Below are positions 6,775 to 19,343 of a stretch of 23,837 nucleotides of DNA, piece after piece (the first letter of the stretch is position 1; every line of letters begins with the position of its first letter). The notes below the pieces were generated by a model that made no database searches, was not told the DNA's origin, and worked only from the letters and a program-made list of their open reading frames with translations. The stretch is from a virus: positions 1-23,837 of the IMG/VR virus record IMGVR_UViG_3300035670_001245; one strand, 5' to 3'. Position numbers and translations under genes: made by a program.

Positions 6775-7887
6775 GTGACAAACGATTTTGATAAAAATGG
6801 ATACGTCCATTTAAAAGAGTTTTTAGATTTAGATAATTGTAAAGAACTTACTAAAGAGTTAAACAAATATATAGAAGAGGGTAAAACAAATAAAGATCCT
6901 CAATGTCCTATATCAGAAGCAATTCATGGCACAGTTACATTTGATAAACTACTAGAAGATTTATTACCTCACTTTGAAAAACATTGTGGTAAAAGATTAT
7001 ACCCTACTTATTCTTATGCTAGACTTTATAAACCTGGTGAAGAACTAAAGAAACATACTGATAGACCTGCCTGTGAAATATCAGCAACAATAACATTAGG
7101 TTTTGAGGGCGATGTATGGTCTATTTATATGGCAGGTAATAAAATAGATATGCAAGTAGGTGATGCTGTATTGTATCGTGGTATGGATGTTGAGCATTGG
7201 CGAGAAAAATATACTGAAGGTAAATGGCAGGCTCAAGTATTTCTACACTATGTAGATGCAGATGGACCTCATGCAGATCAAAAGTATGATGGTAGAAAAT
7301 GTTTAGGAATAGATAAAAATAATCATAATATAGAAAATAAATGTTTACAAGATTATGCTCTATTTGAAAATCATATATCGGATATATTATGTGATATGTT
7401 AATTGATAAATGTACTAAAGATAATATAGATAAAATGCCCCCTTATATAGGAAATGGAGATACTACAAATATTAACTTAAATGTTAGAAATACGGAGCGA
7501 GTGAGATTATCTTTTAATCAAGGAATAGGAGCTACATTAACTGCAACTGCATTAAATGCTAACCACTATTGGTGGAAATATCATATTACTCACTCAAACC
7601 AATCAGAATTTTTAATATATAAACCAGAAGGGCACTATAAAGCCCATGTAGATACTTTTCATTCTCATAGTAATGACATAAGAAAATTAACAGCTCTTGC
7701 TTTCCTTAATGATGATTATGAAGGAGGTAAGTTTTGGATTAACCCTAATGGTAATGTAGTTTACCCAGTACAGAAAAAAGGAACTGTATTAGTATTTCCT
7801 AGTTATATGGTTCATGGTGTTGAGCCAGTGACAAAAGGTGTAAGATATAGTGTAGTAACATGGTTAGAAGGACCCTACTTTAAATAA
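6775..7887 (+). CDS. Tandem two-domain 2OG-Fe(II) oxygenase (370 aa)
   Basis: Two double-stranded beta-helix dioxygenase domains lie in one chain. Domain 1 (about 1-180) has the iron motif H94-x-D96 (KKHTDRP) and a distal His at 141 (VEHWREKY). Domain 2 (about 190-370) has H291-x-D293 (YKAHVDTFH), the distal H348 in FPSYMVHGVEPV, and R357, which fits the arginine that binds the 2-oxoglutarate C5 carboxylate. Domain 2 resembles the prolyl-4-hydroxylase-like group common in aquatic phages. Family enzymes use Fe(II), O2 and 2-oxoglutarate to hydroxylate proteins, nucleic acids or small molecules; the substrate here is unknown. It starts with GTG at 6775, backed by AGAAAGGA. Placement behind the fibre genes suggests modification of a virion protein (inference). 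Confidence 0.85.
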   Translation: MTNDFDKNGYVHLKEFLDLDNCKELTKELNKYIEEGKTNKDPQCPISEAIHGTVTFDKLLEDLLPHFEKHCGKRLYPTYSYARLYKPGEELKKHTDRPACEISATITLGFEGDVWSIYMAGNKIDMQVGDAVLYRGMDVEHWREKYTEGKWQAQVFLHYVDADGPHADQKYDGRKCLGIDKNNHNIENKCLQDYALFENHISDILCDMLIDKCTKDNIDKMPPYIGNGDTTNINLNVRNTERVRLSFNQGIGATLTATALNANHYWWKYHITHSNQSEFLIYKPEGHYKAHVDTFHSHSNDIRKLTALAFLNDDYEGGKFWINPNGNVVYPVQKKGTVLVFPSYMVHGVEPVTKGVRYSVVTWLEGPYFK

Positions 7888-7895
7888 GGATAAAT

Positions 7896-8462
7896 ATGAT
7901 AGATAAATGTATTGGTTTGTTTCCAAAAGTTTTTAATGATGATTTTTGTAAGTTAGTAATAGAAGCTTTTAATAAAAATGAAGCTTTAGGTTTTGCAAAG
8001 AATAGATTAGAAAGAGAGAATGTAAATTCTAATTATAAAGATGATACCTCAACATTTATTACAGAACTAACTAATCAATCTTTTACTCAAGAACTTAGTA
8101 ATGAGTTTCATAAAGTACTGCAAAAAAGCTTAAATGAGTATGCTAATAAGTATAGTGTACTAAAAGAGGGAGACCCTTTATTTGTTAGAACTATAAAACT
8201 ACAAAAAACAAAACCTGGACAAGGATATCATATTTGGCACTATGAACATTGTTCACTAGATCGAGATAGAGTTTTAGCATGGACTGCTTATATGAATGAT
8301 GACTTTGAGGCAGGTGAAACAGAGTTTCTTTATCAACAATACAGATACAAACCTAAAAAAGGAGATCTTATGATTTTTCCTGCAGGGTTTACACATACAC
8401 ATAGAGGGAACCCACCCATAGGTGGAGACAAATATATTATAACAGGATGGATAGAATTTTAA
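7896..8462 (+). CDS. 2OG-Fe(II) oxygenase, single domain (188 aa)
   Basis: This third dioxygenase domain follows the tandem enzyme by eight bases with AAGGAT as ribosome site. The iron motif is H115-x-E117 (YHIWHYEH, with Glu in place of the usual Asp). The distal part reads KKGDLMIFPAGFTHTHRGNPP, with H167 or H169 as the third ligand. K179 sits where Arg often binds 2-oxoglutarate (GGDKYIITGW). The 'FTHTHRGNPP...KYIITGW' ending is typical of a phage and cyanophage oxygenase group. The Glu ligand and Lys may indicate altered activity, or may simply be the norm for this subfamily. It is probably cotranscribed with the tandem oxygenase. The substrate is unknown. Confidence 0.8.
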   Translation: MIDKCIGLFPKVFNDDFCKLVIEAFNKNEALGFAKNRLERENVNSNYKDDTSTFITELTNQSFTQELSNEFHKVLQKSLNEYANKYSVLKEGDPLFVRTIKLQKTKPGQGYHIWHYEHCSLDRDRVLAWTAYMNDDFEAGETEFLYQQYRYKPKKGDLMIFPAGFTHTHRGNPPIGGDKYIITGWIEF

Positions 8463-8463
8463 T

Positions 8464-9057
8464 ATGACAACTCCAAAAGAAGTAGAACAACGACTAAACT
8501 CACATGAAGAACTGTGTGCCGAAAGGTACGCTAATATCCATGCTCGTATAGACAAAATAGAAGCTGTTCTTAATAAACTTCTTTGGACTATCATTATAGG
8601 ATTTGGTAGTATTGTTGTATCTACTATTATTATCAATAAAGCAGAAGCAGCAGAAACAACAATAAATTATAAGGGTCAACCAGTCCCCTCTGCGATGGCA
8701 CCTTCGATGTCTGCTTTCTCTCAAGATGTTTGTGCTGTACCTGCCTCAGGTGGTATTAATACAGGTGTATTTGCTGTGTCAGGTGGAACTGTTCTCACAG
8801 ATGATAACTGTGTACGGATTAAACTAGCAAAAACTCTTAATGATCTAGGTCTTAAGGTTAGTGCTGTATCAGTGCTCTGTGAGGACATTAAAGTATGGAA
8901 TGCTATGGAAATGTCTGGAAGCCCCTGTCCTGTGGGAGGAGCCCTAGGATCAGCAGCAAGAGCTGCTTGGTATGAACTATATCCTGAAAGGTTTACAAAG
9001 CTATATGGTAAAGATTTTACGCTTCCTACTTATACTAAACCTCTTAACTTGGAGTAA
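8464..9057 (+). CDS. Membrane-anchored protein of the lysis/envelope module (197 aa)
   Basis: Residues 1-38 form an amphipathic coiled-coil-like helix (RLNSHEELCAERYANIHARI). One membrane segment follows at about 39-57 (LLWTIIIGFGSIVVSTIII), then NKAEAAET, which could also be a signal-peptidase site. The remaining 135 residues contain four Cys (in FSQDVCAV, DDNCVRI, SVLCEDI and GSPCPV), as expected for an oxidising periplasm. The N-terminal layout recalls XhlA-type small phage membrane proteins. The C-terminal domain resembles no enzyme I know and contains no muramidase motif. Its 3' end encodes the next gene's signal peptide in another frame. A role in holin function or in the cell envelope is inferred from its neighbours. 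Confidence 0.6.
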   Translation: MTTPKEVEQRLNSHEELCAERYANIHARIDKIEAVLNKLLWTIIIGFGSIVVSTIIINKAEAAETTINYKGQPVPSAMAPSMSAFSQDVCAVPASGGINTGVFAVSGGTVLTDDNCVRIKLAKTLNDLGLKVSAVSVLCEDIKVWNAMEMSGSPCPVGGALGSAARAAWYELYPERFTKLYGKDFTLPTYTKPLNLE

Positions 9058-10036
9058 TGCTTATGCTTGGTACTGTACATACACACCTGATCAAAATGGT
9101 TTCATGGTTGAAGACTCGTTGGTCTGCGTTGGTATCGAACCCTCAGTTGCCATTATGGACTACTGGTGTGTCTCGTATCAACCAAATGATCCTATCTGTC
9201 AAAACTACAGTAGGTGCGTGGACCAAACAGAGCAAAGAACAACTGCTTGCACAGAGCCTTTCACTACTGGTTTCGTTAATGAAAGTCGTTTCTATTCTTG
9301 TAATATTGACAGTTGGAGTGCTTGGACTGTTAGTTCGTCTCATTGTGAACCTTTACCACCTACTTGTGTCGAAAGTCAAGAGGAACAAACAATAGCATGT
9401 CAGGATGGTTACACAGGGTCTATAACACAATCAAGATCGACAACTTGCTCGACTCCTTATTCAGACCCAATGACTGGTCCTTGGATTACAAGCTCCAATT
9501 CGTGTACCCTAAAAGCAACAGATCCTACAAGCATAGAGAGTCCATTGAATCCTGCAAGCCCATTGAGTCTAGATCAACCAGACCCAGTTGGGATTACTTC
9601 AGAACCTGTGGATATGAATCCAGTTCCAATGAACAATCCAGTGGAACAAGAAATGGCGATTCCTCAAGTACAGGAAAAACCAACAGAGACAAATACAACG
9701 AAGCCTTCGACATCAAGCTCTACGGAGACGAAGGAAGACAAGCAAGAGGCAAAACAAGAACAGAAGATAAAGACAAAGGAAAACGAGACAGTCGTTCCTG
9801 GGTTTGGGATTGCTATTGATTTTGCATTGATAGAGCAGCCACAAGGCTACTATCAAGAACAATTAACTAACCTTTTAGACTTAGAACAGGAACAGAACTA
9901 TGCCAGAGAACAAAACCTTCTCCTTGACCTTATCTCCCCAAATGGTATTGGGCTTAATCTTAACGATTCTGCCAATAATAGGTGGAGGAGCTTATTACAC
10001 GATAACCCTTTACAATCAGATGCTTTCGGTAATTGA
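9005..10036 (+). CDS. Secreted Cys-rich protein with tandem repeats (343 aa)
   Basis: The start at 9005 gives a classic signal peptide (MVKILRFLLILNLLTWSNAYA, cleavage after AYA). A longer frame from 8972 is possible but has a poor leader. The mature N-terminal part has many Cys. Two tandem repeats follow, CVDQTEQRTTACTEPF...SRFYSC...SSSHC and CVESQEEQTIACQDGY...SRSTTC...SSNSC, a thrombospondin-like spacing of Cys with W/S motifs. Residues about 185-270 are a Pro/Ser/Thr/Glu/Lys linker, and the C-terminal part is Gln/Leu-rich. It overlaps the preceding gene by 53 bases and the next by 137. Acting in the periplasm or at the outer membrane, it could aid lysis or block superinfection. The family is not identified. 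Confidence 0.65.
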   Translation: MVKILRFLLILNLLTWSNAYAWYCTYTPDQNGFMVEDSLVCVGIEPSVAIMDYWCVSYQPNDPICQNYSRCVDQTEQRTTACTEPFTTGFVNESRFYSCNIDSWSAWTVSSSHCEPLPPTCVESQEEQTIACQDGYTGSITQSRSTTCSTPYSDPMTGPWITSSNSCTLKATDPTSIESPLNPASPLSLDQPDPVGITSEPVDMNPVPMNNPVEQEMAIPQVQEKPTETNTTKPSTSSSTETKEDKQEAKQEQKIKTKENETVVPGFGIAIDFALIEQPQGYYQEQLTNLLDLEQEQNYAREQNLLLDLISPNGIGLNLNDSANNRWRSLLHDNPLQSDAFGN

Positions 10037-15358: not shown

Positions 15359-15580
15359 ATGGATCTAAAATCAGATAAAGCTAAGTCGCTTACTAAAGAT
15401 CAAGTATTTAAAGAAATAAAAGATTATCTAACAGAACAGATTGAGTTGTCAAGACGTAAATGTGTAGATGAAGATAATTTCTCTTTTCCTGCATGGTCTG
15501 AACATCAAGCATTCCAACTTGGCTTTCAAAAGGCTTTTACTAAACTATATAATCTTATTCCTGACCAAGGAGAAAAATAA
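15359..15580 (+). CDS. Small head-region protein, possibly leaderless (73 aa)
   Basis: The charged, soluble protein begins MDLKSDKAKSLTKDQVFKEI and contains a long helix (about 15-35) and then FSFPAWSEHQAFQLGFQKAF. The initiating Met is the only one in the frame, and it lies at the expected start point of promoter P3. The mRNA from P3 would therefore have no leader and no Shine-Dalgarno site. Transcripts reading through from the portal gene would lack a ribosome site too. The stop overlaps the scaffold start (TAATG). It is a conserved-looking position between portal and scaffold, but the family is not identified. Confidence 0.65.
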   Translation: MDLKSDKAKSLTKDQVFKEIKDYLTEQIELSRRKCVDEDNFSFPAWSEHQAFQLGFQKAFTKLYNLIPDQGEK

Positions 15581-16299
15581 TGGCTGAAGATAATAATAAT
15601 ACACAACAACAAGAACAAGTTTCCGAGTCAACTACCCAAGCGACTCAGCAAGCAGATACTTCTACCCCTAAGTTTGAGATTCCGACAGAAGCTCTAGACT
15701 TTGTAGGTGAAGGTAAAAAGTACAAATCTGCAGAAGATGCGTTGAGATCTGTTCCTCATGCACAAGAGCACATTAAAACCCTAGAGGAAGAAATGGCTCA
15801 GCTAAAGGAAGAACTCACAAGACGTAAAACTGCCGAAGAACTACTCGATGAAATGAAGTCTGGCATTCAACCAACAGAGGCTACCCCTCAAGGTGTTGAA
15901 TTTGATCAAGATAGATTAATGCAGTTAGTTAATCAAACTATTGAGCAAAAAGAGCAACAAACTAAAGCTAAGCAAAATGCACAAACAGTAGCTAATAAGT
16001 TTACTGAACAGTATGGAGCTCAAGCTGAAACTGCTTATAATAAGATTGCTCAAGAAGCAGGACTAACTGTACAACAACTTAATAACTTAGCTGCAACATC
16101 TCCTAATGTTGTTATGAAGCTTGCAGGATTTGAAACTAAATCTACACCAGTAGGTAAACCTTCAAGTTCTATTAATACACAAGCTTTAAACAATACAGCT
16201 AAACCAGAAATGTCTGCTAGAGTACCAAGAGGTGCTTCTACTAAAGACATGTTGGCAGCATGGAGAAATGCAGGTGAGAAAGTTAAATCTCAATTATAA
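15580..16299 (+). CDS. Capsid scaffolding protein
   Basis: The 239-aa protein lies between portal and capsid genes and has the usual scaffold composition. Its N-terminus is Gln/Asn/Thr-rich and disordered (1-30). A coiled coil occupies about 60-98 (AQEHIKTLEEEMAQLKEELTRRK), followed by acidic and Gln-rich helices (about 110-150, RLMQLVNQTIEQKEQQTKAKQ). The C-terminus is basic (PRGASTKDMLAAWRNAGEKVK) and could contact the capsid protein, as in T7 and P22. Scaffolds shape the procapsid and leave before or during DNA packaging. The identification rests on position and architecture, since scaffold sequences diverge quickly. The start has AAGGAG upstream. Confidence 0.8.
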   Translation: MAEDNNNTQQQEQVSESTTQATQQADTSTPKFEIPTEALDFVGEGKKYKSAEDALRSVPHAQEHIKTLEEEMAQLKEELTRRKTAEELLDEMKSGIQPTEATPQGVEFDQDRLMQLVNQTIEQKEQQTKAKQNAQTVANKFTEQYGAQAETAYNKIAQEAGLTVQQLNNLAATSPNVVMKLAGFETKSTPVGKPSSSINTQALNNTAKPEMSARVPRGASTKDMLAAWRNAGEKVKSQL

Positions 16300-16311
16300 T
16301 AAGGAAATATT

Positions 16312-17295
16312 ATGTCACAATTAACTAGCAATACTACAGCTTTTATTGAAGCTCAACAGTATTCACAGTTTATTCTTGAGAACTTACACGACTATCTATT
16401 GCCAGAAGGTATGTGGAGAGACGTAACTGACTTCGGTTCAGGTACAACTCTTAACATCAAGACAGTAGGTACTGTAACTCTTCAAGATGCTGCTGAGGAT
16501 ACACCTTTAAACTTCTCTCCTATTGACACAGGTAACTTAACACTTGCTATTACTGATTACATCGGTGATGCTTGGAAAGTTTCTGATGACCTTCGTGAAG
16601 ATGGTTCTCAAGTAGACACACTCATGGCTATGCGTGCTATGGAATCTACTCGTGCATTAGGTGAAAACCATGAAACTAAGTTCTTAGCTGCTGCTAACGC
16701 TGCTCATACTGCTGCTAACGCTAACTTAGTAAATGGTCGTCCACATCGTTGGGTTGCAGGTGGAGCAGGTGCTTCTACTCGTAACATGACATTAGATGAC
16801 ATCATCGCTATGAAATTAGCATTTGATAAAGCTAATGTTCCATCAGGTGGTCGTATCGCTATTGTAGACCCTGTTGTTGAAGCTACATTGAACAGCTTAC
16901 AAAACTTAGTAAACGTATCAAACAACCCAATGTTCGAAGGTATCGTAACAGAAGGTTTTGCTCGTGACCATAAGTTTGTAAGAAACATCTTTGGTTTTGA
17001 CATCTACACTTCTAACTTCTTACCATCATTAACATCTACAGAAGCTATCGATGGCTCAGGCTATGGCTTAGCTAATGACACAGGTGAAATTGGTGACAAG
17101 GCTAACGTATTTATGTGTGTTGCTGATGACTCTTGCAAGCCAATCATGCACGCATGGAGACGTGCTCCTAAAACAGAAGGTTGGAGAGATCAAGAAGAAA
17201 GAGCTGACAAGTATCAAGTTACTTCTCGCTTTGGTTTCGGTGCTCAACGTGTAGATACACTTGGTGTTATTTTAACTGACGAAGCTACATACTAA
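16312..17295 (+). CDS. Major capsid protein
   Basis: The 327-aa coat protein follows the scaffold and is of the HK97-fold class by size, position and composition. It begins MSQLTSNTTAFIEAQQYSQF, followed by ILENLHDYLLPEGMWRDVTDF. The core includes LAITDYIGDAWKVSDDLREDG, GGRIAIVDPVVEATLNSL (the usual strand of the A domain) and KFVRNIFGFDIYTSNFLPSL. It ends in a Gly-rich GFGAQRVDTLGVILTD segment. Codon use is biased to strong codons (GCT, GGT, CGT), as expected of the most abundant phage protein. AAGGAAA supports the start. Its first 17 residues recur in the 42-aa protein at 19215-19343. Confidence 0.88.
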   Translation: MSQLTSNTTAFIEAQQYSQFILENLHDYLLPEGMWRDVTDFGSGTTLNIKTVGTVTLQDAAEDTPLNFSPIDTGNLTLAITDYIGDAWKVSDDLREDGSQVDTLMAMRAMESTRALGENHETKFLAAANAAHTAANANLVNGRPHRWVAGGAGASTRNMTLDDIIAMKLAFDKANVPSGGRIAIVDPVVEATLNSLQNLVNVSNNPMFEGIVTEGFARDHKFVRNIFGFDIYTSNFLPSLTSTEAIDGSGYGLANDTGEIGDKANVFMCVADDSCKPIMHAWRRAPKTEGWRDQEERADKYQVTSRFGFGAQRVDTLGVILTDEATY

Positions 17296-17802: not shown

Positions 17803-17838
17803 TTAGGATAGGGGTCTTCGGACCCCTCCTAATCTTTT
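17803..17838 (+). terminator. Strong intrinsic terminator with UUCG tetraloop
   Basis: The stem GGGGTC (17811-17816) and GACCCC (17821-17826) closes on TTCG (17817-17820). Outer arms TTAGGA (17803-17808) and TCCTAA (17827-17832) add six pairs across a two-base bulge, and TCTTTT follows. It begins right after the stop codon of the head protein and should end most transcription of the capsid genes. The downstream tail genes would be expressed by read-through. Confidence 0.92.
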
Positions 17839-18438: not shown

Positions 18439-19215
18439 ATGGCTAAAATGACACTACTTGAAATGGTACAAGACATCATGTCAGATATGGATTCTGATGA
18501 AGTCAATAGTATTAATGATACAGTTGAAGCCCTACAAGTAGCTCAAATCATTAAATCAACTTACTATAATATTATAGATGGTAGAGACTTTCCTTTTCTA
18601 TATGAAACATTTCAATTAGAATCAAGTGGTACAAACGCTAGACCAACTCACATGGGTCTACCTGAAACCATTATTGATCTTAAAACAATTAACTATAACT
18701 GTAGAAAACTTACAGATACTAAAGACAAGTACAAAGAGATTCTTTATAAAACACCTGAAGACTTTCTTTATATCTTGAACCAAAGAGATAGTTCTGCATC
18801 TAATGTAACAACAGTTACTGATACGACAGGTATCTCTTTATTAATTTATAATGATAAAGCTCCTCAATACTTTACTTCATTTGATGATGATAACCTTGTG
18901 TTTGACTCTTATGACAGTTCTGTTGATACTACTTTAGTAGCAGCTAAAACACAATGTCATGGTAAACGATCCGTAGCCTTTACATTATTAGATACATTTA
19001 CCCCAGATCTTCCTGTTCAAATGTTTACATACTTACTTGCTGAAGCTAAGTCAACTGCTTTTGTAACATTAAAACAAATGGCTAATCCTAAAGCTGAACA
19101 AGTCTCTGTATCACAGAAACGTAGAATGTCTCAGGAAGCATGGAAATTAAAGAATGGAATTACCTTTGGTAATTATGGTCGTAAATCAGGAGTGAAAGGA
19201 AAACCTAACTACTAA
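18439..19215 (+). CDS. Tail tubular protein A-like adaptor (gp11-like)
   Basis: The 258-aa protein begins MTLLEMVQDIMSDMDSDEVNSINDTVEALQVAQIIKSTYY, a strong signature of the podoviral adaptor placed between portal and nozzle. Supporting blocks are DGRDFPFLYETFQLESSG, THMGLPETIIDLKTINYN and YKTPEDFLYILNQRDSSASN. In T7 the equivalent gp11 ring joins the portal to the tail nozzle. The length is a little more than T7 gp11. AGGAAA lies upstream of the ATG, and the stop overlaps the next start as TAATG. Gene order (capsid, adaptor, nozzle, internal proteins) is preserved relative to T7-like phages, with extra small genes inserted between adaptor and nozzle. Confidence 0.82.
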   Translation: MAKMTLLEMVQDIMSDMDSDEVNSINDTVEALQVAQIIKSTYYNIIDGRDFPFLYETFQLESSGTNARPTHMGLPETIIDLKTINYNCRKLTDTKDKYKEILYKTPEDFLYILNQRDSSASNVTTVTDTTGISLLIYNDKAPQYFTSFDDDNLVFDSYDSSVDTTLVAAKTQCHGKRSVAFTLLDTFTPDLPVQMFTYLLAEAKSTAFVTLKQMANPKAEQVSVSQKRRMSQEAWKLKNGITFGNYGRKSGVKGKPNY

Positions 19216-19343
19216 TGAGCCAACTAACATCAAACACACAAGCCTTTGTACATTCACAACAATATGGAATGGTGAAGAAACCTGGAGTGAAAGTTACAAA
19301 TCCGTTTAAACAGTTTCAAATTAAGTCAACAAAGAGGAAATAA
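19215..19343 (+). CDS. 42-aa protein repeating the capsid N-terminal arm
   Basis: ATG at 19215 overlaps the adaptor stop (TAATG), and TAA is at 19341-19343. The product begins MSQLTSNTQAFVHSQQYG. The capsid protein begins MSQLTSNTTAFIEAQQYS, giving 13 identities in the first 17 residues with conservative changes at some other positions. The DNA differs at many silent sites, so this is an old or selected likeness, not a recent copy. The tail (KKPGVKVTNPFKQFQIKSTKRK) is basic and unrelated to the capsid. A capsid-arm mimic could act in head assembly or as a binding partner of proteins that recognise the arm. No close ribosome site, so it is probably coupled to the adaptor. GTTTAAAC at 19304-19311. 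Confidence 0.7.
   Translation: MSQLTSNTQAFVHSQQYGMVKKPGVKVTNPFKQFQIKSTKRK

Follow-up and report, generated by a model that had tools for sequence, protein, structure and literature searches.

The window, by which we mean the whole stretch of DNA analyzed here (23,837 bases of a virus record), is a podovirus fragment. Its structural genes are arranged in the order portal, a 73-aa open reading frame (ORF), scaffold, major capsid protein (MCP), two ORFs, adaptor, and the gene of a 42-aa protein termed here the arm microprotein, followed by three small ORFs (148, 78, and 88 aa) and the tail appendage gene. The scaffold gene (15580 to 16299, plus strand) matched phrog_7931, and in the Methylophilales phages MEP401 and MEP402 a scaffold is annotated at the equivalent site. 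The adaptor or tail protein gene (18439 to 19215, plus strand), which lies directly 5′ of the arm gene, matched phrog_7592 (E = 4e-93) and is annotated as adaptor in relatives. The MCP gene (16312 to 17295, plus strand) was classified as a capsid gene of the Zobellviridae type by its profile matches in Pfam and PHROGs (PF25209, E = 2e-12; phrog_267, E = 1.5e-48) and by the HK97 fold predicted for its product. An AlphaFold model of the MCP calculated with 54 diverse sequences (pLDDT 76) resembled HK97-fold podovirus capsids in the PDB, the best structural matches being the capsids of the cyanophages A4 and P-SCSP1u and of T7-like phages; the N-terminal arm was modeled at low confidence, and hence the model is uninformative on arm contacts. 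The relatives of this MCP in the phage collection belonged largely to the Zobellviridae, with MW202697, MEP401, and MEP402 being the closest (81 to 83% identity).

Other features of the window were recorded alongside this block. A terminator-like hairpin, AGGGGTCTTCGGACCCCT, is located at 17810 to 17827 between the 163-aa and 191-aa genes 3′ of the MCP gene; the number of hairpin-like terminator sites in this region was not above chance. Two adjacent genes (6775 to 7887 and 7896 to 8462) each encode a 2OG-Fe(II) oxygenase domain and are flanked by tail-fiber-like and lysis genes. A 354-aa open frame at 8972 to 10036, for which a family match was sought and none found, overlaps three shorter ORFs on the same strand (8464 to 9057, 9057 to 9395, and 9364 to 9819). 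A weak SprT-like match (E = 0.001, under the curated cutoff) was obtained at 1195 to 1845 on the minus strand.

The arm gene (19215 to 19343, plus strand) encodes the protein MSQLTSNTQAFVHSQQYGMVKKPGVKVTNPFKQFQIKSTKRK. Its ATG overlaps the adaptor stop codon by one base in the sequence TAATG (19213 to 19217, plus strand), and this −1 spacing is common to most relatives, so that translation of the two genes is likely coupled. Codons 1 to 17 (19215 to 19265) specify MSQLTSNTQAFVHSQQY, a copy of the N-terminal arm of the MCP, and the remaining codons (19266 to 19340) specify the tail GMVKKPGVKVTNPFKQFQIKSTKRK, which is basic like the tails of the relatives. The MCP itself begins with MSQLTSNTTAFIEAQQYS; the copied part corresponds to 16312 to 16362 (plus strand), and a helix is predicted, at low confidence, for residues 8 to 24. 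The alignment confirmed the initial annotation, which had reported that 13 of 17 residues, including the first eight, are identical in the two proteins. It had also stated that the DNA is not closely similar, and in fact only 32 of 54 bases are identical and the codons at the common Ser, Leu, Thr, Asn, and Ala residues mostly differ.

Against the MCP arm, the arm ORF had a BLOSUM62 score of 63. The runner-up among all reading frames of the window reached 24, and the highest score in 100,000 shuffles of the 42-aa protein was 43. These scores, together with the absence of the arm pattern from prokaryote genomes described below, rule out a chance likeness. The T7 protein gp10B, which arises by frameshifting and comprises almost the entire MCP, has the MCP N terminus and a different C terminus. 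The microprotein resembles gp10B as a second protein with the MCP N terminus and another C terminus, but it is encoded by a gene of its own, with different codons, and its likeness to the MCP is limited to the arm. A frameshift variant of the MCP was ruled out, as the arm gene is a separate ORF 1.9 kb past the MCP stop codon with the limited DNA identity given above. A minor capsid protein with HK97 fold or another MCP paralogue was likewise rejected, since 42 aa are too short for the fold and neither Pfam nor PHROGs gave any match to the microprotein.

The arm microprotein is a real gene family in a group of mostly marine podoviruses. We retrieved 80 close MCP loci from IMG/VR, and nearly all of those extending beyond the adaptor have an ORF for a small protein with this arm that begins at the adaptor stop codon. 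We then counted distinct contigs with a readable stretch past the adaptor: 82 of the 83 with an MCP at least 75% identical to that of the window encode the arm ORF directly after the adaptor (74 recognized by pattern and 8 pattern misses read by eye), the sole one without it being MW202697. With the same pattern, no arm ORF was found after the adaptor in 118 contigs with more distant MCPs (0 of 59 at 50 to 75% identity and 0 of 59 below 50%). The co-occurrence with the capsid type, suggested as a check in the initial annotation, is tight for one MCP clade, in which intact frame and arm motif were kept together in all contigs except that of MW202697.

A degenerate DNA pattern of the arm together with QYG matched at least 119 stretches in IMG/VR, whereas 257 Gb of genome sequence from bacteria and archaea contained no match to the degenerate arm pattern. 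In total, 68 distinct microproteins were gathered. When entire records of other Zobellviridae were inspected, the arm motif occurred only in the MCP; MW202697 had one further match, F-I-A-T-Q-E-Y, which lies on the opposite strand. A widespread generic phage motif was ruled out on these grounds, the other-strand match of MW202697 being set apart, and among the unrelated phage proteins searched the motif was found in none. The only carriers found in the phage collection were MEP401 and MEP402 (OP830906 and OP830907), in which a 55-aa product starting with MTFTTANTLSFIHKEQYGKKKKK... is encoded after the adaptor and annotated as a hypothetical protein. These two proteins belong to the same family as that of the window and are encoded at the same place, but they have a TTG start and a longer tail. 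The paper on MEP401 and MEP402 does not mention "mass spectrometry" (PMC10580990).

In two genomes with a divergent MCP, G001 (58% identity) and G004, the arm gene is located not after the adaptor but within a cluster of short overlapping genes for basic proteins adjoining the tail-fiber gene. The arm protein of G001 starts with MQTTGNTGAFVEGQQYGKKKAKKK... and its MCP with MQLTGNTAAFIEAQQYS; the respective sequences of G004 are MQTSGNTGAFVESQQYGKKKSKKK... and MQLTSNTAAFIEAQQYS. The "tail module" of the initial annotation can thus be specified more closely: in the window, the arm gene follows the adaptor within the connector region, and in these two genomes it lies near the tail-fiber gene. At two loci, L461 (3227 to 4307, minus strand) and L462 (3312 to 4319, minus strand), the tail-fiber gene is adjoined by four or five short genes for basic proteins, which overlap one another; one of them encodes a protein KGAGLTAKGRAKYNAATGSNLKAP...SFCARM, and the arm gene is next in line. 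At locus L078 (9823 to 10166), a 110-aa gene that close relatives lack lies between the adaptor and arm genes. A putative basic ORF of about 60 aa, MAEKWIQKAIKKPGALRKALGVKEGKTIPAGMLAKAAKKPGKMGQRARLAQTLKKM, begins inside the arm gene and overlaps the arm frame at L033, L042, L044, L052, and other loci.

The ratio pN/pS was 0.12 for the arm and 0.41 for the tail (99 pairs of relatives, which are not independent of one another), and purifying selection is thus stronger on the arm than on the tail. When MCP and microprotein of the same genome were compared, identical residues were encoded by different codons in 46% of the cases, compared to the 45% expected if codons are drawn independently from MCP usage. 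As codon choice behaves as if independent, it is the peptide and not the DNA that has been kept, in line with the selection on the peptide proposed in the initial annotation. A relic or a recent copy of MCP DNA was ruled out, because the codons are saturated between the copies. By eye, the arms of the two proteins appeared to covary across genomes, TANT occurring with TANT and TGNT with TGNT. In a partial Mantel test corrected for MCP divergence, covariation between MCP arm and microprotein arm had r = 0.04 and p = 0.24 (p = 0.06 for the TxNT part). As it is not significant once MCP divergence is corrected, covariation was not used as evidence, and coevolution of the arms as proof of a shared partner was dropped.

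The part beyond the arm had been described as basic in the initial annotation, and this holds for the whole family: the tails of all 79 distinct genes contain 32 to 55% Lys plus Arg (median 47%), with a median length of 31 aa and a median net charge of +15 (minimum +6). The tail sequences fall into several types that are unrelated to one another but all rich in Lys and Arg. In its strongly basic composition the microprotein corresponds to internal basic DNA-binding virion proteins. The ending KPKKQGY is present on 21 distinct arm proteins and was found elsewhere only on a separate small downstream ORF, in 4 of the 9 cases with an NPFKxxQ tail on the arm protein; no case among those examined had it on both proteins together. 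The sequences look as if tail modules were exchanged between small basic proteins. For module placement, the loci L113, L119, L122, L174, and L114 were compared with the KPKKQGY-ended arm proteins.

The core of the microprotein arm reads T-x-N-T-x-[AS]-F-[IV]-x-x-[QE]-Q-Y. Conserved in both the MCP arm and the microprotein are T5, N7, T8, A10 (or S), F11, I/V12, Q16, and Y17. Residue E13, invariant in the MCPs, is H in 38, N in 26, and E in 4 of the 68 microproteins, and S18 of the MCP is mostly replaced by G in the microproteins. A possible partner of the arm lies in the scaffold, whose basic C-terminal segment ARVPRGASTKDMLAAWRNAGEKVKSQL (16210 to 16296, plus strand) is a candidate coat-binding helix by analogy with P22 and 80-alpha. 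Its pattern GASTKDLxxAWRxAGEKVK recurs in phages with the MCP type of the window, and SIO1 and the Lentibacter phages have both a different MCP arm type and a different scaffold C terminus. In P22, D14, E15, and E18 of the gp5 N-arm bind R293 and K296 of the scaffold gp8 (PMC9965877), and the helix and hook of the 80-alpha scaffold contact the MCP N-arm (PMC5644958). The N-terminal helix of the SPP1 MCP is held by the scaffold and then unfolds, touching neighboring capsomers (PMC6813328); after scaffold exit, the arm extends and contacts neighboring subunits in both P22 and SPP1 (PMC9965877, PMC6813328). By this analogy, E13 is a possible acidic scaffold contact as in P22. If so, most microproteins would bind the scaffold less well than the MCP does, and we infer that the replacement of E13 favors a shell slot or a changed affinity over simple scaffold docking.

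In our preferred reading, which we hold tentatively and rate as somewhat short of probable, the microprotein arm would bind where an MCP arm does, in the hook of the scaffold or a slot of the shell, and its tail would contact the DNA in the head. The microprotein would be a two-part morphogenesis protein consisting of an MCP-arm copy and a Lys/Arg-rich tail. The arm would take a site in the inner head that normally receives the MCP arm, namely, in the procapsid, the hook at the C terminus of the scaffold, and/or the slot for the extended arm on the neighboring subunit, and would thereby anchor the microprotein to the inner wall of the head, where the tail would then bind packaged DNA. The role of the arm as a docking element is suggested by analogy with the systems above, and DNA binding by the composition of the tail. 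This reading is supported by the scaffold contacts of the MCP N-arms of P22, SPP1, and 80-alpha, by the independent codon choice that places the constraint on the protein, by the restriction of the arm motif, in the records examined, to MCP N termini and these small basic proteins, by the position of the gene right after the adaptor in nearly the whole MCP clade, by the stronger constraint on the arm than on the uniformly basic tails, and by the conserved basic C-terminal segment of the scaffold. The different position of the gene in the two divergent genomes is as expected, because the protein would act in trans. The change of E13 to H or N, seen in 64 of the 68 microproteins, speaks against simple scaffold docking and agrees better with a shell slot, and the nonsignificant covariation of the arms also counts against the reading. 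The gene cannot be a general requirement for assembly, as it is lacking in MW202697 and in the other Zobellviridae with similar arms.

The initial annotation had proposed that the microprotein competes in assembly, caps capsomers, or provides a tag that the scaffold recognizes, and these are plausible candidate roles; a receptor-independent peptide targeting the virion gained no support. A free arm could regulate assembly by competing with MCP arms for the scaffold or neighboring subunits, limiting shell growth or aiding scaffold release once DNA enters and attracts the basic tail, as would be compatible with an arm core shared with the MCP, with the replacement of E13 by H or N that a modified competitor might show, and with the precedent of the SaPI1 protein CpmB competing with the 80-alpha scaffold (PMC5644958). 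We nevertheless consider such a regulator unlikely, since the adaptor is probably made in few copies and a start codon overlapping its stop codon would point to a small amount relative to the MCP, and since the gene is absent from relatives whose arm and scaffold are of the same type. As another rival, the microprotein might fill MCP-arm slots left empty at the portal vertex, where the portal replaces a pentamer, with its tail facing the DNA or the portal-adaptor ring; the overlap with the adaptor stop codon in most relatives would suggest a matched dose. The contacts of MCP arms with neighboring subunits in mature heads (PMC9965877, PMC6813328) are consistent with such slots, but the arm gene is far from the adaptor in G001 and G004, and we regard this role as slightly less likely still.

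Conservation of the peptide while the tails vary could also reflect a decoy for a host factor, such as a chaperone or a capsid-sensing defense system, that recognizes the MCP N terminus. We judge this very improbable, as a defense decoy is expected to be patchy and the gene has a fixed place in the structural block and is nearly universal in the clade; moreover, no host partner is known. The arm could simply have originated from an ancient duplication of the 5′ end of the MCP gene, but that the gene is a functionless relic of such a partial duplication, or a chance ORF, is scarcely credible and is contradicted by its presence in 82 of 83 contigs, the low pN/pS of the arm, and the saturation of synonymous sites between the copies.

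The closest described case is CpmB, a parasite-encoded protein of 72 aa which carries a copy of the C-terminal RIIK motif of the scaffold, competes with the 80-alpha scaffold for the assembly site, and shrinks capsids (PMC5644958). Both are small proteins bearing a copied capsid-assembly docking motif; CpmB copies the scaffold's half of an interface of this kind. Here, it is the MCP arm that is copied, at the N terminus and by the phage itself, and joined to a basic tail. A competing scaffold of the CpmB type was rejected, as the microprotein carries the MCP arm and not a scaffold motif, and its tail, by reading, is unlike GASTKDLxxAWRxAGEKVK. The arms of P22 gp5 and SPP1 gp13 share with the microprotein an N-terminal segment predicted to be helical (PMC9965877, PMC6813328), but they are part of the MCP, whereas the microprotein is a separate product without the HK97 fold in which E13 is mostly replaced. 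Our search of a limited body of open-access literature returned no phage microprotein copying the MCP arm and no earlier description of an arm-tag cargo route for phage capsids. The family is new to the libraries searched; copied assembly motifs as such are already known.

We likewise advance with reserve, as possible and not yet probable, the proposal that the capsid arm exists in tailed phages as a separately encoded copy, serving as a loading or anchoring tag that brings a DNA-binding tail into the head through the docking site of the arm. As MEP401 and MEP402 are cultured carriers, it is testable. Should the arm function as a docking tag, a 17-residue piece of the capsid protein would suffice to recruit another protein to the assembling head, and it would provide a natural probe of the exchange between scaffold and arm slot that drives maturation as well as a short tag for capsid loading. 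For conserved phage microproteins, a likely role may be assignable when they resemble a structural protein encoded in the same genome.
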